The notes beneath the pieces were generated by a model, which saw nothing but the letters and a program-made list of their open reading frames with translations, ran no database searches and was not told the origin of the DNA. Both the position numbers and the translations under genes were made by a program. From Candidatus Aenigmatarchaeota archaeon (lineage in GTDB: Archaea; Aenigmatarchaeota; Aenigmatarchaeia; CG10238-14; SCSR01), in assembly GCA_016181005.1 (NCBI GenBank), contig JACPAE010000002.1, forward strand, positions 124,001 through 188,000: DNA of 64,000 nucleotides, in the 5' to 3' direction. Shown one piece after another: positions 16,971-63,083 of the stretch; the first letter of the stretch is position 1; every line of letters starts with the position of its first letter.

Positions 16971-17116
16971 GCCGAGGTCGCTCAATCTGGTGGAGCACTG
17001 GATAGCTTAGCTAGGTGAATCTTGAGTCAACAGGTTGTGATGATTGGTGATTGAAAGACAACCAGCGGGCGTAAAATAAGCGCAAGCCTATGTGGGTTCA
17101 AATCCCACCCTCGGCG
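16971..17116 (+). tRNA. tRNA-like locus, probably intron-containing; isotype unresolved, discriminator G
   Basis: 7-bp acceptor GCCGAGG/CCTCGGC, D-arm GCTC-AATCTGGTG-GAGC, T-arm GTGGG-TTCAAAT-CCCAC; 146 nt overall. Confidence 0.7.
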
Positions 17117-42013: not shown

Positions 42014-42288
42014 CTGTTTATCAAAGTCCGTCAATCTTAGGCGATTAGTAAGAGCCGGCTGAACACCTCGGTCGAAACCTTGGTGCTTACACCGCTCTCC
42101 TATCAAAGCCATCGTCTATGGCAGCCTTCGTCCAACCACCGGCATTGCTGCCAGCAGTCGGATCGGTTGTCTATTTTTCCGGATGGTTTCCTCCTTAGAT
42201 GCCTTCAGGAGTTATCCATGTATGGCTTAGCTGCCCGGCAATGCTGTTAACAACCGGTACACCAGAGGCCACGGAAGGATGTTCCTTT

Positions 42289-42914
42289 TACGTGCGTTCA
42301 CGCCGAAAGAAAATTAACTTTCTTGTTAAATTTTATTGAATTAGAAGGTTCTATTGTTTTCCAGAATTTTTCGACATTTCTTTTTGTAAAGATTATTAAT
42401 CGGAATATGTAACTTTTATCATTTTTGTATGGACCGTAAATTTTTGATTTTATTTCTAGTTTATCTAGAACTTCTTTGACATTCTCAAGGACTTTAGAAT
42501 CCTTTTGATGCATTATTACTCTAAAGTCTTGTTTTTTGTTTTTGCTTATATACAATTGACCTTCTGCCTCGAAGAAACCCCTAACGAAAGATATACTACT
42601 ATCCCCATTTTCGAACTTTACTTCGTTTAATGGTTGTAATAGTATTTCTAAAGTTTCTTTTGGAATTTCATTTTTTCTAACATAAATCCAAAGCATGTAT
42701 ATTCCGTCACTCGTTTGAATGATTTTAGGTTCTTTATTTGTTATCTGCTTGATTACAGGTGCAATAAATCTCCTTAACCAAACGTCATCTTTTTGCCTTA
42801 CGACAATTCTAATTGTTCCCTTTCCATCGTATACATGTCCATCTGCTAGAACTCCTTTAAGGTAAGCTATATTGTTCATACCTTACCTATTGTTAATTTT
42901 CGACGTAAATACAT
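42289..42914 (-). mobile_element. 23S rRNA intron encoding LAGLIDADG homing endonuclease, in the sarcin-ricin loop segment
   Basis: Splits AGTACGA / AGGAAC; terminal complementarity TTTACGT/ACGTAAA. Confidence 0.85.
42298..42879 (-). CDS. LAGLIDADG homing endonuclease
   Basis: AYLKGVLADGHVYD and SFVRGFFEAEGQLYIS; 193 aa. Confidence 0.88.
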   Translation of the reverse strand: MNNIAYLKGVLADGHVYDGKGTIRIVVRQKDDVWLRRFIAPVIKQITNKEPKIIQTSDGIYMLWIYVRKNEIPKETLEILLQPLNEVKFENGDSSISFVRGFFEAEGQLYISKNKKQDFRVIMHQKDSKVLENVKEVLDKLEIKSKIYGPYKNDKSYIFRLIIFTKRNVEKFWKTIEPSNSIKFNKKVNFLSA

Positions 42915-43689
42915 TTCGTACTTAACCTTCCTTCCGGTCAGACACCCAACACCTCCTGTAGATTGCGACCGAACTGTCTCACAACGTTCTGAACCCAGCT
43001 AGCGTCCCCCTTTAACTAGTGGACACCTATACCCTTGGCTGCTGCTGCACAGCCAGGAGGGGGGGAGCCGACAACGACGCACCAACACGCCAGGTCAATT
43101 TACTCGCAATTAGAGTGAGCAAACGTCGACCTTGAATGCAGTGAGCTTTCACTGGCTACGAGCCCATTATCCCCGAGGTAGCTTTTCTCATACCACCGGC
43201 ACCCATTAATGGACACCGATGTATCGTTAACCCACGCTTTCGCGTTTGGATTCCCTGCTTTGCGGAATCCAATCAGGCTTCCTTTTGCGTTTATACTCTA
43301 TTCCGGATAACCAGTCAGAGTAATTTACCTACATCCGATTTCTGTCGGGTAATGCGAACTGATTAAATTTGCGGCTCATCAGCTACCTCGCTTATCATGA
43401 AATCAAAACCGAAGTTTACAATCACCGCCGCACAAATGCAGTGCGCATTATGACCCGGATGAGGAAACCTTAGGAGGCCCTTGATCCTTTATCAAGGGCG
43501 TACCGCCCCAGCCGAACTGCCCATCTGATGGTGTCCTCTTACGAGTAAGCAGTACAGTTTTGAAAGGGTAGTGTTACATTTTCCTCTCAGCCTTGCCCAG
43601 AAGCAAGGCCTAATGACGAGTCCTACCTACGCTCTGCAACCAAAACCGTACCGCAGCATCAGACTGCAGTAAAGCTCACCGCTGGGGTA

Positions 43690-44118
43690 AGGAAAATTAA
43701 AGATTTATTCTCTTTCTCTCCTTGTAATATCTCCTAGTCCATGCATATGAGTATCCCCTACAAATACATCTGGATCTTGACCATGCCCACGATAAGAACG
43801 TGGAGCTAATGCACCTTTGCTTCCAAGGTATACCTCATAAATCTGCTGCCCAGTCTCACGTAAATTTTCTGCTATTCTTGGATGTCTTTCACTTTTTGAA
43901 GGTGGCGTATTTAACCAAAGAATATAACGCCTTATAACACTTCGCTCTTCTGAGCTAAAGTCATACTTTTTTAGTTCTCTCTTAATGTACCATTCTATAG
44001 GGCGATGCATATGCACTTTAGAGCAATTGGTGTTTAAATATATTTTCTTTTCCTTAACCCCATCTACGGGGTCTACGTCTTGGGTTATCAAAATAGATAA
44101 ATCTACTTACGATAAATT
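43690..44118 (-). mobile_element. 23S rRNA insertion (intron-like) in the peptidyl-transferase loop region
   Basis: Interrupts archaeal GGGGACGAAAAG/ACCCC segment; internal ends AGATTTAT/ATAAATCT complementary. Confidence 0.7.
43705..44010 (-). CDS. Intron-encoded hypothetical protein without LAGLIDADG motif
   Basis: From internal Met MHRPIEWYIKRELKKYDFSS; TATA-like ATATTTAAACACC ~25-35 nt upstream. Confidence 0.5.
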   Translation of the reverse strand: MHRPIEWYIKRELKKYDFSSEERSVIRRYILWLNTPPSKSERHPRIAENLRETGQQIYEVYLGSKGALAPRSYRGHGQDPDVFVGDTHMHGLGDITRRERE

Positions 44119-45520
44119 CCCACAGGAGGTCTCAGGCCTATTCACCTGAATAGCAATTTCGCTGGGTACCAGTCCAAGACAGTGGAGAAGTCGTTAAGCC
44201 ATTCAGACGGGTCGTCAATTAAACGACAAGGGAATGCGCTATGAGAAGTTCCTATTCTTGCTAGAACAGAAAAATTCTCTTTCATTCCTTAACGTCTTTC
44301 TCCAAAGTTTACAGCCGCTAAAGTTCGCATACATTTTCCAGTGGTTTCTGACTATCGCACCGTCTATAGCATGTAGCATATTTCAAGAAACTTCCCATAT
44401 TTACGCTACTTTACGACGGTCAGAGTTACCGCCACCGTTTACCGGGGCTTAGTCCCCTTGGAAGGGGCTTTGACACACCGGCACTGGGTAGGCATCAGAG
44501 ACTGTACTAACCCTTTCGGGCTTGCAGTCTCAGGCGTTTTTGTTAAACAGTCGCCTCTCCCTTGCTAGTGACACCTGCAGTTCCCCTTTCGGAAAACCAC
44601 AGGCACTGCTTCTTGCGAACTTACGCAGCTAATTTGCCGAGTTCCTTAGACTGGGTTGTCCCAACACACCTTCGTCTTCTCAACGAGTCTACCTGTGACG
44701 GTTCTCGGTACGGGCATGAAGGATCCTTCCAAGTTCGATTTTCATGGGCTCAAGGAATCGACAAAACTCTGCATACGCAAAGCTATTCCTGCATTCACCT
44801 CCTTCTCCTCATTATAAGACTCCAGAGGCTTCAACAGTTAACTTACGTTTGCCTATCCCAAAGCGTCTCGAACCTGGCTTGCGTTGCCGCGCGTACCTCC
44901 ATGGTATCGGAATATTAACCGATTTCCCTGTCGCGTGCTTAGATTAGCGGCACACTTAGGACCGACTAACTGCCAGCTGACGAACATGGCTGACAAACCC
45001 TTAGACTTCAGGTGGCTAAGATTCTCACTTAGCTATGTTGCTACTGTCAGCAGGATCTTTATTCCTCCACGGTCCACTCCTGCTCACGCAGAAGCTTCTG
45101 CCCATGAAGGACACCCCTCTACCCTCTTTTGCAAGAGCTTAGGTATCGGTAACTGACTTAGTCCCGTCCATTTTCAGCGCATAAATCCTCGGTAGGTAAT
45201 CTGTTACGAACTTCTTGGCGGATGGCTGATTCTAAGCCTACCGTCCTACTGTCTGAGGATTTACACTGCCTTCTACATTTAGTCAGTATTTAAGGACCTT
45301 AACCTAAGTCTGGGTTCTTGCCCTCTCGGATACCGAGCTTACCCCAGCACCCTAACTCCGGCCTTCTACGGCTGCAGGAGATTCGGAGTTTGGCAGAAAA
45401 ACTGGACCTTTCGATCCTTGGCTTTCCAATCAGTAACTCTACCCTCCTGCAAGCCTCCAGCCAGGCTGCACCAAGATGCATTTCGAGGGGAACCAGCTAT
45501 CACTGGGTTCGTTAGGCTTT

Positions 45521-45843
45521 TGGTGTTCAGAAAGAAGTTATTTAGGTTGTTTAACTAATTCTCTATCTAGCATAGGATCCCAAAGAGCATGCGCAACTAA
45601 TCTTCCAGGCATTCCTAGCCAATATCTAAAGTTTCGTTCTGTTGTATCTGCTGCTGTATACGGAAAACCTGGAATATCTCTCCACCTTAACGCGTTACTA
45701 GCAATTTGATACGCTCTTATGTTTTCGTAGACTGCAACTGCCGTTGAGGCTATCGCAGCAACTTTAGCCGTATTTCGCAACAAACTTCTGTAATTCATAC
45801 CTTTATGTTTTGGTAGAATACTATTTAAGCTTCTTTCTAAATT
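45521..45843 (-). mobile_element. 23S rRNA insertion (intron-like) near E. coli ~780-790
   Basis: Splits GGGTGAAA / GCC; 9-bp inverted ends AGAAAGAAG/CTTCTTTCT. Confidence 0.75.
45538..45798 (-). CDS. Intron-encoded hypothetical protein (86 aa), not LAGLIDADG
   Basis: ORF inside rRNA insertion; TATA-like CTTAAATAG ~26-36 nt upstream of ATG. Confidence 0.5.
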   Translation of the reverse strand: MNYRSLLRNTAKVAAIASTAVAVYENIRAYQIASNALRWRDIPGFPYTAADTTERNFRYWLGMPGRLVAHALWDPMLDRELVKQPK

Positions 45844-46744
45844 TCACCCCTAACCCCGGATCACCCGAAGGAATTGCAACTCACAACCGGTAGCAGACTT
45901 CCACCTACCTTTCGATAGGCTTCATCTTATCCAGGGTTAGATCACCCAGTTTCAGGTCATACCCCAGTAACTTTAGGCGCTTTCACACCATGCCCCACAC
46001 TGCTTGCGCAGCTACGGGCATATCGCTTTCGCTTAGGCTTCCCGGCTTAGCCGGTTAACCTCGCTACTGAGGCATACTCCCTGCTCCGTTTTTCGAAACG
46101 GACGGCATGATCCTGTAATCTGTTCTTCGTACTAGCATGAGCGTTCCTTCAGAACAGAACCTTTCGGACCATGCCTGACTATGGCCATTTGGTTTCAAGC
46201 TCTTTTCACCGAGCTTTCGCTCTACTTTTCAGCTTTATCTCACGATACTACTTTGCTATCGGACTTCAATAGTGTTTAGGGTTGCCGGTTAATGACCGGC
46301 AGATTCCTGCTCCATATCCGAGGAGCAGTACTTAGGATACTTGGAATCTTCTTTCTCTCCTTCTCTTACGTGACTATCACACTTTGACGTGGGGCTTTCC
46401 AGCCCACTTCAGATCAGAAAGTTAAGAAGTGCCCAAGTCCTGCAACTCCACATCCATCCCTGCTTTCGCAGGGTGTTCGGTTTACCCTGTTCTGCTTTCA
46501 CTCGCCGTTACTGACAGAATCTCGATTGATTTCTTTTCCTGCGGCTACTAAGATGCTTCAATTCACCGCGTTCCTCTCCCTTTCGGGATTGCCCTTAACG
46601 GGCTGCGAATCGCATTAGGTGACTCTGGGGTCGAATCCTCCCTGCGGATAACCCAGAATTTGTGCAGCTTGGCACAACCTTCGTCAGCTATTGAAACCTA
46701 GCTATCCACCAAATGGCGTAGCATTGACAGACCTTATTGACCAA

Positions 46745-49203: not shown

Positions 49204-49339
49204 GATACCGGATCGAATTGAGCATGTTGATTTTGGATGGCTATAATCAATTCACCTCCAACTCATCACAACTCAGAGTCAAGCCTTGTTTTCATACTAT
49301 AGCCGATTAGGTTTCAATTTCTAATCGCTCTTTCGATCT
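49204..49339 (-). mobile_element. ORF-less 136-nt 16S insertion (intron-like) near the 3' end (E. coli ~1505)
   Basis: Splits GCCGTA / GGGAAC; ends carry GATCGAA/TTCGATC complementarity. Confidence 0.75.
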
Positions 49340-49444
49340 TACGGCTACCTTGTGGCGACTTAGCCCCTCTCGCGAACCCTCAACTCGACCTACCCTTGCG
49401 GGCGGGCCTCGATGAGAACTCACTCGATTGGCTTGACGGGCGGT

Positions 49445-49481
49445 TTACACTTGACTAGTAGAATTTCTTCCCTATATCAAT
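49445..49481 (-). other. 37-nt 16S insertion within universal GYACACACCGCCCGTC (E. coli ~1397/1398)
   Basis: GACGGGCGGT + 37 nt + GTGTGCAAGGAGCAGGGAC on plus strand. Confidence 0.8.
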
Positions 49482-49957
49482 GTGTGCAAGGAGCAGGGAC
49501 CTATTCGGCGAACGAATTCACGACAGAAAGATGGTTCTTCAGGTGTCCAACCCTCAAAATCATCAGCACCTTCCTATCTTGGTGACGTTCGCCTACTAGC
49601 GATTCCGGCTTCATGCGGATGAGTTACAATCCGCAATTCGAACTGAGCATGCTTTTAGGGGATTTGCTTCTCCTTTCGGAGTTGCATCCCATTGTGGCAT
49701 GCATTGTAGGTCGCGTGTAGCCCAGGAGGTCCGCGCCATACAGACCTACCGTCGCCCATTCCTTCCTCTGGTTTATCACCAGCGGTCTCGTATAAGTGCT
49801 TGCTTTCCGGAGAAAGCAGTGGCAACATACGATATGGGTCTCGCTCGGTAGTTATGAGGAAATTGAGTTTACAACTTACCCCATTTTAACCGACTTAACG
49901 GCACGTCTTTACCGCTGTGCATATCGCATCATGACATAACACAGTCACGATACGAGC

Positions 49958-50788
49958 TTTATCGTTCGATCAATTCCCTAAGTAAAAATACTTTTTGTTG
50001 TTTTTTCTCATCTTTGAGAAATAACTTGCTAAGAATTTTAACAGCAGAATTAAATGATATTTTAAGATCGTATGCATTTCTGTTCTTATAAGTTGATATC
50101 CATCCGCTAATGTTGAATTTCTTCAATAATGAAAAATCTTTTCTTGCTTCTTCAAGACTACCGTAGGTTATTTTTATTGGACTTGTCCTATATTTAACTG
50201 CGTACAACATTAATGTTCCATCGGCATCTATACGACCAGAAAGATACGCAAGTAACTCATTTTCTCTTTGAATTAAGGTTTCTCGATCCTGTTCTAAATT
50301 TTCTAGAATTCTTCGAATTAAACCTGAATTTATTTTAACTCTTGATGCATCACCATTGTTAATGGAAACTTTCTTCAACATCTTTCTTTCTTTTACGATT
50401 CGCTCAAGGAACTTCATAAATTCATCCAACAGTTTTTCATTTGTGTTTGTGATGCCAACTGAATTTCCAAACCAATATTTATCACCACACCAAAGCCCAA
50501 GGTTATAGAAGAATTTTTCATCAATTTGTAAGAATCTTGTCACATTAACCGAATTTTCGAACTGATTCCTAACATTTGATTTTAGTGAATTTTTCTCAAC
50601 TGAGACGTACTTATTAATGTACTCCTTCGGTAATACTAGTTTTAAATCCAATTTTTGGACTGTGCTTTCGATTTCCATTTTCACTCACTTGTTAACTGAA
50701 ATAATGTGAAGCTGGGTATATCTGGTTTTAGTCTTGTGATATGAAATAGAAATCAAGATATACCCAACTATTTAGAAACTGAGTCGAA
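49958..50788 (-). mobile_element. 16S rRNA intron with LAGLIDADG gene at E. coli ~1067/1068
   Basis: Exons ...GGCCATCGTCA | ... | GCTCGTATCGTGA. Confidence 0.88.
49959..50684 (-). CDS. LAGLIDADG homing endonuclease
   Basis: LLAYLSGRIDADGTLMLY; 241 aa. Confidence 0.9.
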   Translation of the reverse strand: MKMEIESTVQKLDLKLVLPKEYINKYVSVEKNSLKSNVRNQFENSVNVTRFLQIDEKFFYNLGLWCGDKYWFGNSVGITNTNEKLLDEFMKFLERIVKERKMLKKVSINNGDASRVKINSGLIRRILENLEQDRETLIQRENELLAYLSGRIDADGTLMLYAVKYRTSPIKITYGSLEEARKDFSLLKKFNISGWISTYKNRNAYDLKISFNSAVKILSKLFLKDEKKQQKVFLLRELIER

Positions 50789-51890
50789 TGACGATGGCCA
50801 TGCAGCAGCTCTCGGCTTGTTAGGTAAGACCTTCAGCCTGACCTTCATCCTGCCGTCGCCCCTGGTGAGATGCCCGGCGTTGAATCCAATTGAACCGCAA
50901 CCTCCACCGCTTGTGTGCTCCCCCGCTTGAACTAGAGCCAGAACTAACTGAACCCTATCAATTCCCTTAAGTAAAGTGTGGGTAACACACGATACCAATC
51001 CTGCTAACCCATTTCACCCTTGCGAGTATACTCCCCAGGTGGCCCACTTAACACCTACGCTCCGGCACCGCAATCTCCCAAGAAGATTGCAGCACCAAGT
51101 GGGCATCGTTTACTGCTAGGACTAACGGGGTATCTAATCCCGGTCGCTCCCCTAGCCTTCGTCCCTCACCGTCAGACAAGTTCCAGACAGACGCCTTCGC
51201 CACCGGTGGTCCCTCTAGGATTAACGGATTTAACCCCTACCCTAGAAGTACCTCTGTCCTCTCCCTCTCTCAAGCCTGCCAGTATTCCCCGCAAGCCTGA
51301 CAGTTTACTGCCAGATTTCACAGGGAACTTAACAAGCCGGCTACGGACGCTTTAGACCCAATAATAGTGACCATCACTTGAGCCTCGGGTATTACCGTGT
51401 ACCGTGCTACCTTTGCGTATAGCATGGCGGCTGGCACCCGTATTGCCCGGCCCTTATTCTCCGTCCTGTTTTCAGACGGCAAAAGTTTCTGCAATGCAGA
51501 AACACTCCAAGTCCCCTTTTCGCCCGTTAAGGCATTGAAAAGTTTTCTCTCCTGCTGCGTTCCGTAGAACCTGGATTCATGTCTCAGAATCCATCTTAGG
51601 GCTCCTACTTCCATAGCCCTCACTCGTTATAGGTTTGATAGTTCGTTACACTATCAACAGCCTGATGAGCCGCAGTCCCATCCTTAGCCGCAAAAGCTTT
51701 CGTTCTAGCCACATTCCAGTAAGCTAGAACTATGGCGTATTAGCCGCACTTTCGCACGTTTATTCGCCCGCTAAGGGCAGGTTGACTACGTGTTATGAAG
51801 CAATTCAGGTCGGGTCTTACCCGATCCCTTCGCATGGATTAGTAGAACTCGGATAGCAATGGTCTCTGGCGGGATCAGCCAGAATTGGCG

Positions 51891-52507: not shown

Positions 52508-52630
52508 TGCTGGTGGAGGGAATTGAACCCTCGACCTCTGCGAATCATGTCATCTTTTCATCAAAGCTCATTTGACTTTATGAGCACAGCATAGGCTCTT
52601 TCGATGTTCTAACCACTGAACTACACCAGC
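52508..52630 (-). tRNA. tRNA-Met(CAT)-like with two introns (15 nt at ~26/27 and 35 nt in anticodon loop)
   Basis: Removing 52590..52604 and ~52543..52577 gives an exact 73-nt cloverleaf: GCTGGTG TA GTTC AGTGGTTA GAAC A CTGTG CTCATAA CGCAG AGGTC GAGGG TTCAATT CCCTC CACCAGC A. Confidence 0.88.
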
Positions 52631-52679: not shown

Positions 52680-53669
52680 ATGCACTTGATAATTTTCGGC
52701 CCGCACGGCTCTGGCAAAGGCACGCAGGCGGAGAAGATATCCCAGCACTATGGTATAGTACGTGTCACCACCGGCGACATATTCAGGGAGAATATAGGAA
52801 AAGGCACCCTGCTTGGGAAACGAGCAAAGAAGTACATGGAATCGAACGTTTACGTCCCGGACCAGGTAACTAATGGCATGGTTAAAGAGAGGCTTCAGAG
52901 AGCTGATTGTAAAAATGGATTCATATTGGACGGCTATCCACGAACTCTTAACCAGGTAAAGTTTCTTGATAAACTTCTCGGAAAATTGAAAGTTAAATTA
53001 GATGCTGTTGTCAATTTGCAAGTTGGTGAAGATGAAGTTGTGAAGAGATTGTTGAAGAGGGCAAGGAACACTGACGATACCGAAGAAGGAATTAGAAAGC
53101 GTGCTAAGGAGTATGAGATAAAGGCAAAGCCAGTTTTAAACTATTACAAGAAAAAAAGCAAGGTGGTTGATGTGAACGGTGGGCAAACTATAGATAAAGT
53201 TTTTCAAGACATTAAAACAATATTAGACAAGGTGCAAAAGATAGAAAGAACGCTTGTTATTGTAAAGCCGGATGGTGTGAAAAGGAAACTTACTGACGAG
53301 ATTGTTAGAAGGTACGAAGCCGCTGGCTTGAAGGTTGTGGCGATGAAGAAGGTAGAGGCATCCTCTTCAATGTTAAGCTTGCACTATTCAGCACATGTAA
53401 AAAAGCCTTTTTACAAGGGGCTTGTAAAGTTCATGACGGAAGGGCCAGTTGCGGCGATGATAGTTGAAGGTGAAAATGCAGTTGCACGAGTAAGGGAGAT
53501 TACAGGGGTCACTGACCCAAGTAGGGCGCAGAAAGGAACCATACGCGGGGATCTTGGAGACGACTCTACAGAAAGGGCGGACAAGGAAGGCAGGGCAATA
53601 AGGAATCTGGTGCATGCGTCGGGGAGTAAAGAGGAAGCCGAAAAAGAAATCAAACTTTGGTTTGGATAG
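52680..53669 (+). CDS. Adenylate kinase-nucleoside diphosphate kinase fusion
   Basis: GPHGSGKGTQAEKI ... RNTDDTEEGIRKR (Adk); ERTLVIVKPDGVKRKL ... RNLVHASGSKEEAEKEIKLWF (Ndk). Confidence 0.92.
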   Translation: MHLIIFGPHGSGKGTQAEKISQHYGIVRVTTGDIFRENIGKGTLLGKRAKKYMESNVYVPDQVTNGMVKERLQRADCKNGFILDGYPRTLNQVKFLDKLLGKLKVKLDAVVNLQVGEDEVVKRLLKRARNTDDTEEGIRKRAKEYEIKAKPVLNYYKKKSKVVDVNGGQTIDKVFQDIKTILDKVQKIERTLVIVKPDGVKRKLTDEIVRRYEAAGLKVVAMKKVEASSSMLSLHYSAHVKKPFYKGLVKFMTEGPVAAMIVEGENAVARVREITGVTDPSRAQKGTIRGDLGDDSTERADKEGRAIRNLVHASGSKEEAEKEIKLWFG

Positions 53670-55882: not shown

Positions 55883-57307
55883 TTACTCTTTTACGAAATG
55901 CTTTAGACTTTTCGAGACTTTCTTTTCTTTCTGGTTCAGTGAATGTATCGCCATCCCGTACGCGTCCATGACAGCCTCTCTGAATGCCTCTACAAGTGTA
56001 GGATGGGGATGAAGAGTGTTTATAACATCGTCCGCTTTCAAGTATTTCAACGCAAGTATCGCCTCGCCTATCATATCTGAAGCGCGCTCATTGATCATGT
56101 GAACCCCCAGAAACTTTTTGGTCTTCTTGTCTATTATGACCTTTACCAAACCGTACGAATCCCCAAGTGTCATCGCACGGCCGCTGGCCTTGAAGTAGAA
56201 TTTGCCAACCTTAACATCATGCTTCTTCCTCGCGTCGTCCTCTGTCATGCCTATTCGCGCTATTTCGGGTATCGCATAAATGCAGTAGGGCACCAGCCGA
56301 CCTTTCATGGAGGAATTAAATCCCATTGTGTTCTCTGCCGCAACAATTCCGTTTTCAATAGCCTCATGTGCAACTCTCCCGCCGGCAACATCTCCAACAG
56401 CATAAACGCCCTTAACAGAGGTCTCCATCTTGTCATTTACCATAACCTTACCGAACTCGTCAGTCTTGACGCCTACAGTTTCAAGCCCAATATTTTGGGT
56501 GTTCGGCCTTCTGCCGGTTGAAACAAGGACCTTGCTGCTTTCGATAGTCTTGCCGTTAGAAAGCTTTACCCTGACTTTGCCTTCGTCGCTTATTTCAGCC
56601 ACTTTTGCATTAGTCAATATTTTGACCCCCTTATCTTTCAATATTTTTTCTACTCTTGATGAAATGTCCCTGTCTTCAAAAGACAACAGCCTGTCAAGCA
56701 TCTCAACAATCGTCACATCAGCGCCGAATTGGGAAAATATGCATGCGAACTCTACACCCTCCGGCCCGCCGCCGACAATCAAAATATCCTTCGGTATTTC
56801 TGCGGTCGAGAGAAATTCTTCGCTAGTGAAAATATTCTTGCTTCCCGAAAAAATTTTCGGCTTGGTGCCAGTGCTGCCGGTCGCAATGATTATATTCTTG
56901 CACTTTAACGTTTCTTCGAACTTGTCTCCCTTGTAAACAGAAACCTCGTGCCTTGACTTTATCCTGCCCACACCACTAAAAATTTTGACCCCATTCGATT
57001 TCAATAGTGTTTCCACCCCTTTCATCAGCTTGTTCAGAAGCATGTTTCTGCTTTCCATCATCTGCTTCTGATCAACTCCTTCGCTTGTCATCCTTATTCC
57101 GAACTGTCTTGCTAACGGGATGTTCGACTGTATCTCCGCAAGTTTTATCATCGTCTTGCTAGGGATGCAGCCATAGTTATTGCATATGCCGCCCAACCTG
57201 TCCCTTTCAATCAATGCAACTTTTCCGCCTAACTGCGCAGCCCGAATAGCGGCAACGTATCCCCCTGGGCCTCCTCCTATGACTACGACATTGAACTCTT
57301 CCGTCAT
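55883..57307 (-). CDS. lpdA: Dihydrolipoamide dehydrogenase-like flavoprotein
   Basis: VVVIGGGPGGYVAAIRAAQLGGKVALIERDRLGGICNNYGCIPSK. Confidence 0.9.
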   Translation of the reverse strand: MTEEFNVVVIGGGPGGYVAAIRAAQLGGKVALIERDRLGGICNNYGCIPSKTMIKLAEIQSNIPLARQFGIRMTSEGVDQKQMMESRNMLLNKLMKGVETLLKSNGVKIFSGVGRIKSRHEVSVYKGDKFEETLKCKNIIIATGSTGTKPKIFSGSKNIFTSEEFLSTAEIPKDILIVGGGPEGVEFACIFSQFGADVTIVEMLDRLLSFEDRDISSRVEKILKDKGVKILTNAKVAEISDEGKVRVKLSNGKTIESSKVLVSTGRRPNTQNIGLETVGVKTDEFGKVMVNDKMETSVKGVYAVGDVAGGRVAHEAIENGIVAAENTMGFNSSMKGRLVPYCIYAIPEIARIGMTEDDARKKHDVKVGKFYFKASGRAMTLGDSYGLVKVIIDKKTKKFLGVHMINERASDMIGEAILALKYLKADDVINTLHPHPTLVEAFREAVMDAYGMAIHSLNQKEKKVSKSLKHFVKE

Positions 57308-58596
57308 TTGCTAATTGCCTCTTTTACGAAACTAATTTCTCCTGCAAGATTAGAATCGAATTTTGATTCACTTAAAAATTTACTTCCGTCCAAGGTCAAC
57401 GGTTTGACGTTTTCTTTTGCGACAAACCCAGGCGATGTCCAAGAGAACGGTCCCATCATAATTCCAGGGTATATCGATGTCTTGATTCCTGTTTTTGTAT
57501 AGTCTCCCATAACAACTCCAAACTTTCTCCTGCCTGTGTCAACCATTTGGCCTTTTACATTCAGTCTTATTGACTTGTTGTCGTGCCTTAAATTTGCGAT
57601 TATGGTGCCTGCTGCAAGGTTGCAGTTGTCGCCGATTACAGAATCGCCCACGTATGATAGATGTTCTATTTTCGTGTTGTCCCCTATAATAGTGTTCTTT
57701 ACCTCAACCGCATTTCCTATCCTGCATCCATTGCCTATGACAGAATTAACCCTTATGAAACAATTCGGCCCTATTGTGCAGTTGCTGCCAATTATGACAG
57801 GGCCTTCTATATAGGCACCAGACTTGATAATGGTGTTTTTACCCACACTGACAGAACCTTTCATCATGACATTTTTTTCGGCAGCTGGGACGTTTGAGAC
57901 GATTTCTTTCATCAGCATTTCATTAGCGATTAGGAGATCCCATGGATAACCTATTGGCACCCACTTGCCAGCAATCACACATTTCACAGGATGCTTCCCG
58001 CACATCTTAAAGACCGCATCAGTGACCTCGAACTCATCCCGCGGGGATTTCTTCACATCTTCCAAAAAGTTGAAAATATCTTTGTTCATTACATAAAGTC
58101 CAGTGTTAGTTAACTTTGAATCGGGATTTTTAGGTTTTTCAATTATATTTTTTACAAATCCTTTCTCAACTTCAACTGAAGCAAAATTTTCCGGATTTTC
58201 CTTTTCATTTGCCAATAGACAGAGGCCACTCTTTAAACACTTCTTGATGTCGTCGCTATGGTAAATGTCATCTCCGCACATTACAAGGAATGTTTCGTCC
58301 TTTATCATGTCCTTCGCTTGCAGTAACGCATGACCCGTGCCCATTCGCTGCTCCTGCGAGACGAATTTTAAATTCATTCCAAATGAATTGTTCTTGAGGA
58401 AATTTTTTATCTTGTCCTGCAAATAACCTACAACCAGTATCACGTCTCTAATTCCACTCTTTTTTAATTGTTCAAGATTATGCTGCAATATTGTTTTGCC
58501 GGCAACTTGCAACAGAGGTTTTGGCTTTGTATAAGTCAATGGGCGCATTCGAGTACTATCGCCCGCCAATAGCATTACAGCTTTCATTCGATTCAC
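57304..58596 (-). CDS. Bifunctional sugar-1-phosphate nucleotidylyltransferase/acetyltransferase (GlmU-like)
   Basis: AVMLLAGDSTRMRPLTYTKPKPLLQVAGKTILQHNLEQL plus left-handed beta-helix hexapeptides. Confidence 0.88.
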   Translation of the reverse strand: MNRMKAVMLLAGDSTRMRPLTYTKPKPLLQVAGKTILQHNLEQLKKSGIRDVILVVGYLQDKIKNFLKNNSFGMNLKFVSQEQRMGTGHALLQAKDMIKDETFLVMCGDDIYHSDDIKKCLKSGLCLLANEKENPENFASVEVEKGFVKNIIEKPKNPDSKLTNTGLYVMNKDIFNFLEDVKKSPRDEFEVTDAVFKMCGKHPVKCVIAGKWVPIGYPWDLLIANEMLMKEIVSNVPAAEKNVMMKGSVSVGKNTIIKSGAYIEGPVIIGSNCTIGPNCFIRVNSVIGNGCRIGNAVEVKNTIIGDNTKIEHLSYVGDSVIGDNCNLAAGTIIANLRHDNKSIRLNVKGQMVDTGRRKFGVVMGDYTKTGIKTSIYPGIMMGPFSWTSPGFVAKENVKPLTLDGSKFLSESKFDSNLAGEISFVKEAISK

Positions 58597-60146
58597 CTGA
58601 TGAGCTTCATTAATGAAGCCGCAAGCTTTTCAGAGTCGTGAGTCAGCAAACCCAATTCTCCCCACTTGAATTCTTTCCTTTCATTCAGGAAGTTGCCCTC
58701 GATTAATCCAATGGAATTTAATTTTTCTTTATCAACCTGTACCATGCTTGCACCTAATTTCGTAAAATGTTCCAAAACTGTTTCATCTGGATGAGCTGTA
58801 TTTACTATGACATAATTAAGAACATGTCCCTTAAGATATTTTTCCAGCGCGTCAACGTGTTTTGAAACAGTAAAATCATCTGTCACATAAGGTTGCGTCA
58901 TCACGTTGCAGATAAAAACCTTCTTTGCCATGCTTTGCTTGATAGCCTCAGGCACCCCAGCGACAAGAAGATTAGGTATCACGCTTGTATACAAGCCTCC
59001 TGGACCAAAAACAATCACGTCTGCATTCTCTATCTCCTCCACAGCCTCCGGCAAAGCCTTTACACCTTCAGACGGTTTCAGGAAAACTTCGGCTATAGGT
59101 GATTTGACTTTGTTCTCGTTCCTTATCTGTGCCTCGCCCTGAATTACAATGCCGTTCTCGTATTTTGCACATATGTCTGTGTTGACGCCTGTGACTGGGA
59201 ACACCTTGCCCCTTATCTTCAGTATTTTACCGGCCTGTTTAATCGCCTCTTCGAAAGAATTGAATAATTTAGTAAACGACAGCAGCAAAAGATTTCCGAT
59301 GCTTGTGCCTTCAAGATACCCGTCCAAAAATCTGTAATCGAACGCGTTCTTCAGAGTTTCGTCCGCATTCGACAAAGCAACCAAGCAATTTCTTATATCG
59401 CCGGGCGGCAGAATCCCATAATCCTTCCTCAGCATCCCAGAGTTTCTCCCGTTGTCCATCACAGTTACTATGGCAGTGATGTTAACATCATATTTCCTTA
59501 ATCCTTTTATCAGGATGGGGAGACCTGTGCCTCCCCCAATCAAAACAACATTTGGCCATGCGTTCACGCTGAGGTTCAATAGCTCCCTCTTGCACTGTGC
59601 AAGACTCTCGAAAGTTATTACATGAAAGCCCAGCTTTGAAGCGGCTTCCGTGTTCCTAATCTTGTCGTCTATTAACAGAGAGTTTTCTGGAGGTATGCTG
59701 AAGTGCTTTATAACTTCAAGATATGATTCGTGCCACGGCTTTTTGATGCCGCGCTCGAACGACCAGAAGGTAGCGTCGAATAACTTGTCAAGCTCGTATT
59801 TCTGTATCAGATAGTCGGCCCACTCCTTGGTAAAGTTGGAAAGTATTGCAAGCTTGTATCTGGGCCTTAGGCTCTTAACAATTTCCAGCATGCCGGGGAT
59901 TGGCACGAGCTCCTCCCTTACAAGGGATTTCAGTTGCTCTACAGAATATTTCGTGCCGGTTCTCTTTATGAATTCCTCGAAGAGTTTTTCCTCAGAGATT
60001 TTACCCAGCTGCAAGTCTTTTCTCAAGTCGGAATGGTCTACACTTCTGAACTCCTGCTCGTCTATGTCCAATCGCTTGGACACGCCGTGCCACGAGTTTA
60101 CTAGCACGTCTTCAAGATCGAATATTATAAGCTTGATAGACATCAT
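58593..60146 (-). CDS. HAD-hydrolase + GlmR/YvcK (CofD-family) fusion
   Basis: N-term IIFDLEDVLVNSW...LIDDKIRNTEAASKLG (HAD); C-term VVLIGGGTGLPILIKGLRKYDVNITAIVTVMDNGRNSGMLRKDYGILPPGDIRNCLVAL (YvcK). Confidence 0.88.
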   Translation of the reverse strand: MMSIKLIIFDLEDVLVNSWHGVSKRLDIDEQEFRSVDHSDLRKDLQLGKISEEKLFEEFIKRTGTKYSVEQLKSLVREELVPIPGMLEIVKSLRPRYKLAILSNFTKEWADYLIQKYELDKLFDATFWSFERGIKKPWHESYLEVIKHFSIPPENSLLIDDKIRNTEAASKLGFHVITFESLAQCKRELLNLSVNAWPNVVLIGGGTGLPILIKGLRKYDVNITAIVTVMDNGRNSGMLRKDYGILPPGDIRNCLVALSNADETLKNAFDYRFLDGYLEGTSIGNLLLLSFTKLFNSFEEAIKQAGKILKIRGKVFPVTGVNTDICAKYENGIVIQGEAQIRNENKVKSPIAEVFLKPSEGVKALPEAVEEIENADVIVFGPGGLYTSVIPNLLVAGVPEAIKQSMAKKVFICNVMTQPYVTDDFTVSKHVDALEKYLKGHVLNYVIVNTAHPDETVLEHFTKLGASMVQVDKEKLNSIGLIEGNFLNERKEFKWGELGLLTHDSEKLAASLMKLIR

Positions 60147-61912
60147 TTCACCGTTACGCTCTTCGCGAGATTCCTTGGATGATCCGGATCCAAACCTCTC
60201 AACACAGCTAATTGGTATGCGAGTATTTGAATGGGAATTATCTGGACTATAGGATTTTCGTTATTTGCCTCGGGCACTTTCAACCAAAAGTCGAATACTT
60301 CGTTGTTCGTTGGTGAAACTCCTATTATGTAACCGCCACGGCTCTTGATTTCGTTCGCGTTTGAAAGAATCTCTTTCTCTGTCTCCTCCGAAACAAACAC
60401 GATGCACGGCGTCCCGTCCTCCACAAGAGCTATTGGGCCATGCTTCAATTCTCCGCCCGCAAAAGCTTCTGCATGTATGTAGGATACTTCCTTGATTTTA
60501 AGCGCAGCCTCCAATGCAGTCGTATACTCGAGGCCTCTGCCAATAAGGAAAATGTGTTCCTTGTTTTTCAGCTTTTCAGCGAGCTCCTTTATCTTTTCCT
60601 TGACAGTTGCCGAAGTCAAATGGTAAATCACATTCCACAAATAATTCAGCCTTTTCTTCCCTTCTTCCAATTTTCCCGAAAGTGCGTATGCCAACAGCGT
60701 GAAAAGAGCAAGCTGTGATGTGTAGCTCTTTGTCGCAAGCACGCATATCTCCGGCCCCGCATTCAAATTCAAGAACGAGTCTGAAGTCCTGGTGAGAGAC
60801 GAACCTACGACGTTTACAATTGACAGTATCTTGCAGCCTCTCGCCTTGGCATATTTTACAGCCTCCAAGACATCGGCGGTCTCGCCGCTTTGGGATACTG
60901 CAACAACCAATGTTTTTGGCGTGAGGAAATGCTCGTAGTGTGGGAACTCGGACGCCAATACAACGTTGACATGCATTTTGTTCAGCTTGGATAAAATGTA
61001 GCTTGCTGCAAGGCATGCATGATAGGAAGTTCCTGACGCTATGAGGAATATCCCGTGCGCATTCCTGATGCTGTGCACAACTCCGTCTACAACTTCTTTG
61101 GTCTGTTGGACTGCCTTCTGCACTGTCTCCACCTGCTCGGAGATTTCCTTGAGCATGAAATGATTGAACTCTCCCTTCTCGGCTTGCCTGATGTCCCAAT
61201 CTACAGTGTCGACCTTCCTGTTAACATCACCGCCTTCCAAGAGGCTGAAAACTTTCATGCCGGTGTCGGTTAACAATGCCACATCGCTGTCATGCATGTA
61301 GACAACATTTTTGGTGTGCTCAAGAAATGCCGGAATGTCACTTGCTGCAAAATAGCTCCCATCAGCTACGCCTATGACAAGAGGCGATCCCTTGCGTGCT
61401 GCTACTATCTTTCTTTCATTCTTGTGGAGTGCTAGGATAGCGTAACTGCCTTCAAGCGACCTTAGCGCAGAAAGTGTTGAGTCATGGAAATTCTTCCCCC
61501 TTTTCATTATCTCCTCTATCAGATGCGGTATCACTTCCGTATCCGTCTGGCTTTTGAACTTGTGGCCGTTGCTCACAAGATTCTTCTTCAGCTCCTGGTA
61601 GTTTTCTATAATGCCATTATGAACAACTGCTATCTTTCCTTCGCAGTCTGTGTGCGGATGCGCATTCTCTTTTGTAACGCCGCCGTGTGTGGCCCATCTT
61701 GTATGCGCAATGCCTAATGTTCCAGGCAGGTCGGAGAAGTTGAGCCGTGTATTAATCTCGTCCACTTTTCCTACATCCTTCTTCATATGGAACTCCTTGT
61801 CCAGAGTGACAATACCAGCGGAATCATACCCTCTATATTCAAGCCTTTTCAGCCCGTTGAACAAGATTGGGGTTGCATTCTTTGTTCCTATATAGCCAAT
61901 TATCCCGCACAT
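60143..61912 (-). CDS. glmS: Glutamine--fructose-6-phosphate aminotransferase
   Basis: MCGIIGYIGTKNATPILFNGLKRLEYRGYDSAGI; C-term NLAKSVTVK. Confidence 0.96.
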   Translation of the reverse strand: MCGIIGYIGTKNATPILFNGLKRLEYRGYDSAGIVTLDKEFHMKKDVGKVDEINTRLNFSDLPGTLGIAHTRWATHGGVTKENAHPHTDCEGKIAVVHNGIIENYQELKKNLVSNGHKFKSQTDTEVIPHLIEEIMKRGKNFHDSTLSALRSLEGSYAILALHKNERKIVAARKGSPLVIGVADGSYFAASDIPAFLEHTKNVVYMHDSDVALLTDTGMKVFSLLEGGDVNRKVDTVDWDIRQAEKGEFNHFMLKEISEQVETVQKAVQQTKEVVDGVVHSIRNAHGIFLIASGTSYHACLAASYILSKLNKMHVNVVLASEFPHYEHFLTPKTLVVAVSQSGETADVLEAVKYAKARGCKILSIVNVVGSSLTRTSDSFLNLNAGPEICVLATKSYTSQLALFTLLAYALSGKLEEGKKRLNYLWNVIYHLTSATVKEKIKELAEKLKNKEHIFLIGRGLEYTTALEAALKIKEVSYIHAEAFAGGELKHGPIALVEDGTPCIVFVSEETEKEILSNANEIKSRGGYIIGVSPTNNEVFDFWLKVPEANNENPIVQIIPIQILAYQLAVLRGLDPDHPRNLAKSVTVK

Positions 61913-62020: not shown

Positions 62021-62165
62021 CATCCTAAGAAAATAATTCTCATGAGGCCATATAAATCGAGCCTAAAAACATTGTTTACAAATGGTGCTCGCGGCTGCAA
62101 AAAAAGGTTTAAAAGGCCTTAACCACTAAAGAAAGATTTATAAAGGTAAAAATATGGTTATAGAT

Positions 62166-63083
62166 ATGTCGTACGTTGTAGAGGAGCATCCGGAAGGCCA
62201 GATGATTCGCAGAACTACCATCATGAAGCCAGCTACCTTTAACGCATTGAACAGCGAGCTTGCTGTGAAAATTCTCGAGGAGCTTGGAAAGAAGTCACAG
62301 TGCGCCATGGACATTGCAAGGAAGTTGAAGCAGCACGAGCAGAAGATTTACTATCACATCAGGAGGCTGGAGAAGGCCAACATTGTGAAGCTTCTCAGGC
62401 GCGAGGAGCGCGTAGGCGGGCTGGCAAAGATTTACGAGGTAACGCATCCCTACATATCGATGAAGCTTTACGAGGGCGAGCATATTGCTGATGTAAAGAG
62501 CAGACCGAAGGAGATCGAATTTTTCAAGTCCTTCATAAAGAACGGCAAGTTCGACGGGTTGATTGTTGTAGGTTCGCCAGACCCGCATGGAAAGTATGGC
62601 GCTCAGGCTTCTGACGGTAGCGCTGCCATAGACTTGGCCTTGCTTCTGGGCAGTTTCCTGCAGAAAGTCTCGCCTAATTACAAACTCGACACCGAAGTCA
62701 GGGAGAACGACTTGAGGAACAACCTGATTATTGTAGGCGGGCCAAAAGCGAACATTCTGATAGACAGGATAAACATAAATTTGCCGATTTATTTCGATAC
62801 AAAGAATGAGTTTAATATTGTTTCCAGTTTCACCAAGTCTGTATACAGCGAGGACAACGTCGGGATTATTGTAAAGATGAAGAGCCCGTTCGCAAAGGAC
62901 AAGGAGATTATTCTTCTTTCTGGAAAAAGGTTCAAGGGTACCAAGTCTGCCATTTTAGGACTGATGAAGTATTTGAAAAGGATAGAGGACGGGAACAGGT
63001 TTGATGAAGGAATAGCAAGGGTTGTTCACGGCATTGACATAGATTCTGACGGAACTATTGACGATGTGGAGTTTCTGGAATAG
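62166..63083 (+). CDS. ArsR-like wHTH regulator with large C-terminal domain (called ORF starts 62154)
   Basis: LAVKILEELGKKSQCAMDIARKLKQHEQKIYYHIRRLEKANIVKLL; TATA TTTATAAA at 62137..62144 favours start at 62166. Confidence 0.8.
   Translation: MSYVVEEHPEGQMIRRTTIMKPATFNALNSELAVKILEELGKKSQCAMDIARKLKQHEQKIYYHIRRLEKANIVKLLRREERVGGLAKIYEVTHPYISMKLYEGEHIADVKSRPKEIEFFKSFIKNGKFDGLIVVGSPDPHGKYGAQASDGSAAIDLALLLGSFLQKVSPNYKLDTEVRENDLRNNLIIVGGPKANILIDRININLPIYFDTKNEFNIVSSFTKSVYSEDNVGIIVKMKSPFAKDKEIILLSGKRFKGTKSAILGLMKYLKRIEDGNRFDEGIARVVHGIDIDSDGTIDDVEFLE

Follow-up and report, generated by a model that had tools for sequence, protein, structure and literature searches.

A conserved HAD-fused variant of the GlmR module in an amino-sugar operon of Aenigmatarchaeota

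The window analyzed here, a stretch of 64,000 nucleotides (contig JACPAE010000002.1, positions 124,001 to 188,000), comes from a 740 kb genome of Candidatus Aenigmatarchaeota that is 92% complete. Archaeal rRNA genes are present in it, confirming the archaeal origin of the locus that an initial annotation, made from the sequence alone, had assumed. Its minus strand carries four intact open reading frames: glmS, for a glutamine--fructose-6-phosphate transaminase of 589 aa (60143-61912; TIGR01135 705 bits, cut-off 418); a gene of 517 codons joining a HAD hydrolase domain to a YvcK/GlmR domain (58593-60146); an archaeal-type glmU gene, for a bifunctional sugar-1-phosphate nucleotidylyltransferase/acetyltransferase of 430 aa (57304-58596; TIGR03992 (Arch_glmU) 493 bits, cut-off 292); and lpd, for a dihydrolipoyl dehydrogenase (55883-57307; TIGR01350 508 bits, cut-off 409). 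These genes had been described as overlapping by 4 nt at every junction. This is correct for the two ATGA junctions (57304-57307 and 60143-60146), while the GTGA at 58593-58596 is an overlap only if the glmU-type gene begins with GTG. Such a start is also possible in a sister genome (G003); the conserved N-termini of homologues (MEAVMLLAG / MQAVMLLAG) fit an ATG 9 nt downstream of the GTG, and initiation at that ATG (58587) would leave a gap of 5 nt to the fusion gene.

The predicted fusion was borne out. It occupies a single open frame, and intact orthologues, 68-74% identical, are found in two sister genomes, G001 and G003. Since this frame is kept in both sisters and AlphaFold models both domains with high confidence (pLDDT 91.8 and pTM 0.82 for the whole protein), a sequencing artefact can be dismissed. 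Pfam and NCBIfam profiles place HAD_2/Hydrolase at residues 4-177 and PF01933/TIGR01826 (YvcK) at residues 200-516, and we delimit a HAD-IA domain at residues 1-192 (59571-60146, minus strand) and a YvcK/GlmR domain at residues 199-517 (58593-59552, minus strand). The alternative that the C-terminal domain is a CofD of F420 biosynthesis draws on the Pfam name of the shared superfamily, CofD (PF01933), and on a paper in which the archaeal GlmR homologue is said to be CofD (PMC7525490). Both profile and fold rule out this identity, which we regard as extremely improbable. TIGR01826 gives 322.7 bits (cut-off 196) whereas TIGR01819, the F420 CofD profile, gives 27 bits, far below its cut-off of 257; the AlphaFold model matches B. 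halodurans YvcK (2hzb) with TM 0.95 and 42% identity in the structural alignment, whereas CofD and FbiA reach a TM of only about 0.57-0.68; and the neighbors are glm genes. The domain is therefore of the GlmR/YvcK type, as first annotated.

We surveyed 156 genomes of the phylum and 14 control genomes, using curated profile cut-offs. yvcK exceeded the cut-off in 19 of the 156 phylum genomes. In 14 of these 19, glmS lies within about 15 kb of yvcK, often adjoining it, and glmU-like genes are adjacent in most. The linkage to glmS and glmU noted at this locus is thus conserved across the phylum, and the neighborhood survey of archaeal YvcK that had been proposed supports, as run within the phylum, a module concerned with UDP-N-acetylglucosamine (UDP-GlcNAc). 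The gene order of the window (genome G000), glmS–HAD·YvcK–glmU–lpd, is repeated in G003 and appears in G001 as glmS–HAD·YvcK–glmU, where the contig ends inside glmU. Other arrangements are glmS–GlmM·HAD–yvcK–nagB-like–glmU–lpd in the sister genome G002, glmS–yvcK–NTP transferase in G056, glmS–GNAT–HAD·YvcK–NTP transferase–glmM in G143, glmS–YvcK·HAD–glmU in G123, glmS–yvcK–glmU–HAD in G104, glmS–acetyltransferase half of GlmU–yvcK–nucleotidyltransferase–HAD in G105, glmS–HAD–NTP transferase–yvcK–GlmU·HAD in G067, and yvcK–glmU–HAD in G095, G148 and G152. A scan of contigs matched only the sister genomes plus weak HAD relatives in Nitrospirota. When G002 (L033 8422-13523) is compared with the window, glmS is 79%, lpd 60% and the divergent regulator gene described below 84% identical, while yvcK and glmU are only 36% and 34% identical; judging from these identities, the central part of the G002 operon seems to have been exchanged in situ.

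In 14 of the 19 YvcK genomes, yvcK either carries a fused HAD or has one no more than three genes away. Within 18 fetched regions, HADs made up 13 of 118 genes at most three genes from yvcK and 1 of 173 genes farther away (p = 5e-5, a value to be read as a guide, the HAD profile having been built partly from the same HADs). Fusions of HAD and YvcK fall in three clades of the YvcK tree, many of whose inner branches are unresolved: the HAD is N-terminal in the genus trio, N-terminal in G129 and G143, and C-terminal in G123. Other enzymes of the pathway carry a HAD as well: GlmM in G002, and GlmU in G067, which belongs to another lineage. Because the HAD-YvcK fusions occupy different places in the tree, and because the HADs of the trio and of the G129/G143 fusions belong to different subfamilies, we did not retain one origin for all of them and take them as several independent joinings; a single origin plus later replacement remains the alternative. 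That relatives have fused such domains to GlmR and to its pathway neighbors several separate times makes it probable that the pairing has a function and did not arise by accident. Alternatively, the HAD may be a house-cleaning phosphatase of general scope, or a neighbor carried along with no specific role, and the fusions neutral. HADs are abundant and promiscuous, and several of their subfamilies are involved here, as such an explanation would have it; however, neutrality accounts poorly for recurrent fusion in several arrangements together with strong local enrichment, and we consider it unlikely, though still to be reckoned with.

The HAD domain modeled alone reaches a pLDDT of 96.7. The structures nearest to it are 3cnh, BT2542, YihX and the phosphatase domain of soluble epoxide hydrolase (sEH), with TMq values of about 0.79 to YihX and about 0.84 to the sEH phosphatase (about 0.79-0.87 for YihX and 3cnh). 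All four HAD motifs are present (D10-L-E12, motif I; S103, motif II; K135/K136, motif III; D160-D161, motif IV), with D10 as the nucleophile, but Glu takes the place of the second Asp of the D-x-D nucleophile/acid-base pair of motif I, both in the fusion proteins of all three genomes and in the HAD of the sister genome G002. Identity as a beta-phosphoglucomutase was supported neither by profile (TIGR01990 21 bits, cut-off 189) nor by fold (TMq about 0.58).

The possibility of a mutase arises from a second feature of these genomes. PGM_PMM_I (PF02878) occurs in 113 of the 156 phylum genomes and in 14 of 14 controls, but it was not found in G000, G001 or G003, the three fusion-bearing genomes, where full-length G002 GlmM used as a query had no match at E<=10 either. 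The G002 protein has intact active-site motifs (TASHNP, DGDGDR and RASNTE), scores 371 bits against Arch_GlmM, under the strict cut-off of 439, and is joined to a HAD of the same type. In many relatives (e.g., G007, G026, G033 and G050) glmM stands beside glmS. In the fusion-bearing genomes glmS and glmU share an operon without a detectable known mutase, leaving a gap in the pathway at the step between GlmS and GlmU, for which a mutase is needed. The HAD could fill it as a non-orthologous phosphoglucosamine mutase, converting glucosamine-6-phosphate (GlcN-6-P) to glucosamine-1-phosphate (GlcN-1-P) in place of a lost GlmM. Beta-phosphoglucomutase provides a HAD-IA precedent for such an activity, and G067, which also lacks PF02878, has a beta-phosphoglucomutase-like HAD directly after glmS (TIGR02009 is its best match, at 69.7 bits, below the cut-off of 153). 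However, the G002 HAD, 48% identical and likewise D-x-E, has as its fusion partner a GlmM whose motifs are intact, and as a mutase it would be unneeded there; the fold of the domain in the window is nearer to YihX and sEH than to beta-phosphoglucomutase. Moreover, since PF02878 is missing from about 18 of 99 glmS-positive genomes, including G056, which lacks this HAD, and since the genomes are 86-92% complete, the absence of GlmM is no specific pointer to the HAD as its replacement. A coupling between YvcK and the absence of GlmM was also considered and not upheld, as 5 of 19 YvcK genomes lack PF02878 and no clear link emerges from the comparison with the glmS-positive set. We therefore hold a mutase role to be quite unlikely. 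It is very doubtful that the HAD has replaced GlmM in this genus and that a single HAD·GlmR chain, standing between GlmS and GlmU, thus covers both the mutase step and uridylyl transfer. In the open-access literature searched we found nothing relevant on a YvcK-HAD fusion or on a HAD-type phosphoglucosamine mutase, which is weak evidence.

Uridylyl transfer releases pyrophosphate, and a HAD that removed it would pull UDP-GlcNAc synthesis forward. HAD pyrophosphatases exist (PpaX and BT2121 in NCBIfam), and in G105, where yvcK has a family-I pyrophosphatase gene nearby, removal of pyrophosphate seems relevant. Yet that same cluster holds a HAD in addition to the dedicated pyrophosphatase, which would make the HAD redundant there, and the HAD domain studied here has no NCBIfam PpaX or BT2121 match at E<=0.001. 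A pyrophosphatase role is accordingly improbable in our judgment.

We lean, by a modest margin over even chances, toward an archaeal GlmR–HAD module that controls UDP-GlcNAc synthesis and whose HAD has one of the sugar phosphates of the pathway as its substrate. By family assignment, GlmS would make GlcN-6-P and the GlmU-like enzyme would make UDP-GlcNAc from GlcN-1-P. The GlmR domain may support flux at GlmS and/or at the uridylyl-transfer step, as has been shown for Firmicutes GlmR: the B. subtilis protein binds and stimulates GlmS, GlmR makes UDP-GlcNAc in vitro, and in bacteria it is partnered by YvcJ (PMC6171935, PMC7525490, PMC10128056). The HAD, standing where bacteria use YvcJ, would hydrolyze GlcN-6-P, GlcN-1-P or N-acetylglucosamine-1-phosphate as an opposing activity. 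The module has an observed basis in family membership, conserved synteny, repeated HAD fusion and the lack of a detectable RapZ/YvcJ; the substrates of the enzymes, stimulation of GlmS and the direction of control are what we infer. RapZ-like_N, the profile for the YvcJ/RapZ partner, exceeded its cut-off in 0 of 156 genomes, although the B. subtilis control was also without a match despite the yvcJ reported there, which shows the sensitivity of this search to be imperfect. A Glycos_transf_4 enzyme (PF00953, sugar-1-phosphate transferase family), encoded in 4 of 5 genomes of the genus, is a plausible consumer of UDP-GlcNAc.

Apart from the partial circularity of the proximity test, several points weigh against this module. 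The motif I of the HAD is D-x-E, leaving its catalytic competence unproven, and the HADs near yvcK come from different subfamilies (YihX-like, TIGR02253-like and beta-phosphoglucomutase-like), such that a common substrate is not assured. In four YvcK genomes the region fetched around yvcK is free of HADs, and in G041 the HAD lies four genes away. We found no biochemistry of any archaeal YvcK in the literature. Finally, residues of the GlmR domain itself have changed. B. subtilis GlmR needs Y265 and R301 to bind UDP-GlcNAc (PMC7525490, PMC13046274). By way of 2hzb, where the equivalent residues are Y264 and R300, these positions map to F461 and T502 in each of the three fusion proteins. The Tyr and the Arg are both kept in the nearest relatives, whether solo or fused (G116, G129, G143 and G022), and the R301 position varies in other archaeal YvcKs. 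With both residues replaced, classical sensing of UDP-GlcNAc is doubtful, and feedback through the classical site unlikely, in this genus. For Listeria GlmR, a part in uridyl transfer has been proposed for D40, D41 and N198 (PMC10128056); the fusion keeps the first and last as D231 and N392, while the second Asp of the pair is Asn (N232). The D-N pair is also found in 2ppv (S. epidermidis) and in E. coli YbhK. Thus, of the conserved UDP-GlcNAc control module suggested initially, the linkage to glmS and glmU and the conservation of the fusion stand, whereas the ligand sensing that was part of it loses its classical residues.

The remaining gene had been counted as part of the coupled operon. 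lpd lies 3′ of glmU in the window as well as in G002 and G003; because a gene for a lipoyl-type E2 is located elsewhere in this genome, lpd is probably a passenger of the operon, and a pathway role is not indicated. Divergent to glmS, a plus-strand gene (62154-63083) encodes a protein that Pfam assigns a helix-turn-helix domain of the ArsR type and an S_layer_C domain. It has the same divergent position in G001, G002, G003, G056, G143, G123 and G067 and is near glmS in G104, making its product a candidate regulator of the operon that could link the S-layer with amino-sugar supply.

Further features were seen in the window and in one relative. An adenylate kinase is fused to a nucleoside diphosphate kinase in one open reading frame (52680-53669, plus strand); in G002 and G003 the two have genes of their own, side by side. 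The 16S rRNA gene (49311-51885, minus strand) spans 2575 bases against 1478 model positions and contains a LAGLIDADG reading frame (49959-50684); the 23S rRNA gene (42025-46733, minus strand) spans 4709 bases against 2987 model positions, with another inside (42298-42879). Introns with homing endonucleases are probable in both. Two tRNA matches, of 123 bases (52508-52630, minus strand) and 146 bases (16971-17116, plus strand), were missed by ARAGORN, and their lengths suggest tRNA introns. In G067, GlmS contains an intein that includes a LAGLIDADG domain (L089 8744-12001).

GlmR is a studied cell-wall checkpoint of Gram-positive bacteria whose biochemistry is still debated, and the locus described here is a real and conserved variant of the GlmR module. 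A true GlmR-type protein in archaeal amino-sugar operons differs from the equation of the archaeal homologue with CofD (PMC7525490) and suggests that GlmR serves, at base, to supply UDP-GlcNAc and not peptidoglycan as such. The HAD offers GlmR a compact partner, and the absent GlmM is a concrete pathway gap in these small genomes. In comparison with Bacillus and Listeria GlmR (YvcK), the protein shares the TIGR01826 family and the fold of 2hzb, and the known relation of GlmR to GlmS (PMC6171935, PMC7525490) is matched by the linkage to glmS and glmU. Unlike them, it is archaeal and fused to a HAD in a phylum where no RapZ/YvcJ was detected, Y265 and R301 are replaced, and D-N stands for D-D in the site proposed for uridyltransferase activity (PMC10128056); 2ppv, however, is also D-N. 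CofD and FbiA, the 2-phospho-L-lactate transferases, have the superfamily fold in common with its C-terminal domain, but the fusion scores far under the CofD cut-off and has other gene neighbors. The closest characterized folds to the HAD domain are the HAD-IA enzymes YihX, a glucose-1-phosphatase, and the N-terminal phosphatase of sEH, at only about 20-22% identity, with the D-x-E motif I and the fusion to GlmR being features found here. With the archaeal GlmS-GlmM-GlmU pathway the locus shares glmS and Arch_glmU; GlmM was not found, and HAD·GlmR occupies the place where relatives often have glmM, beside glmS.

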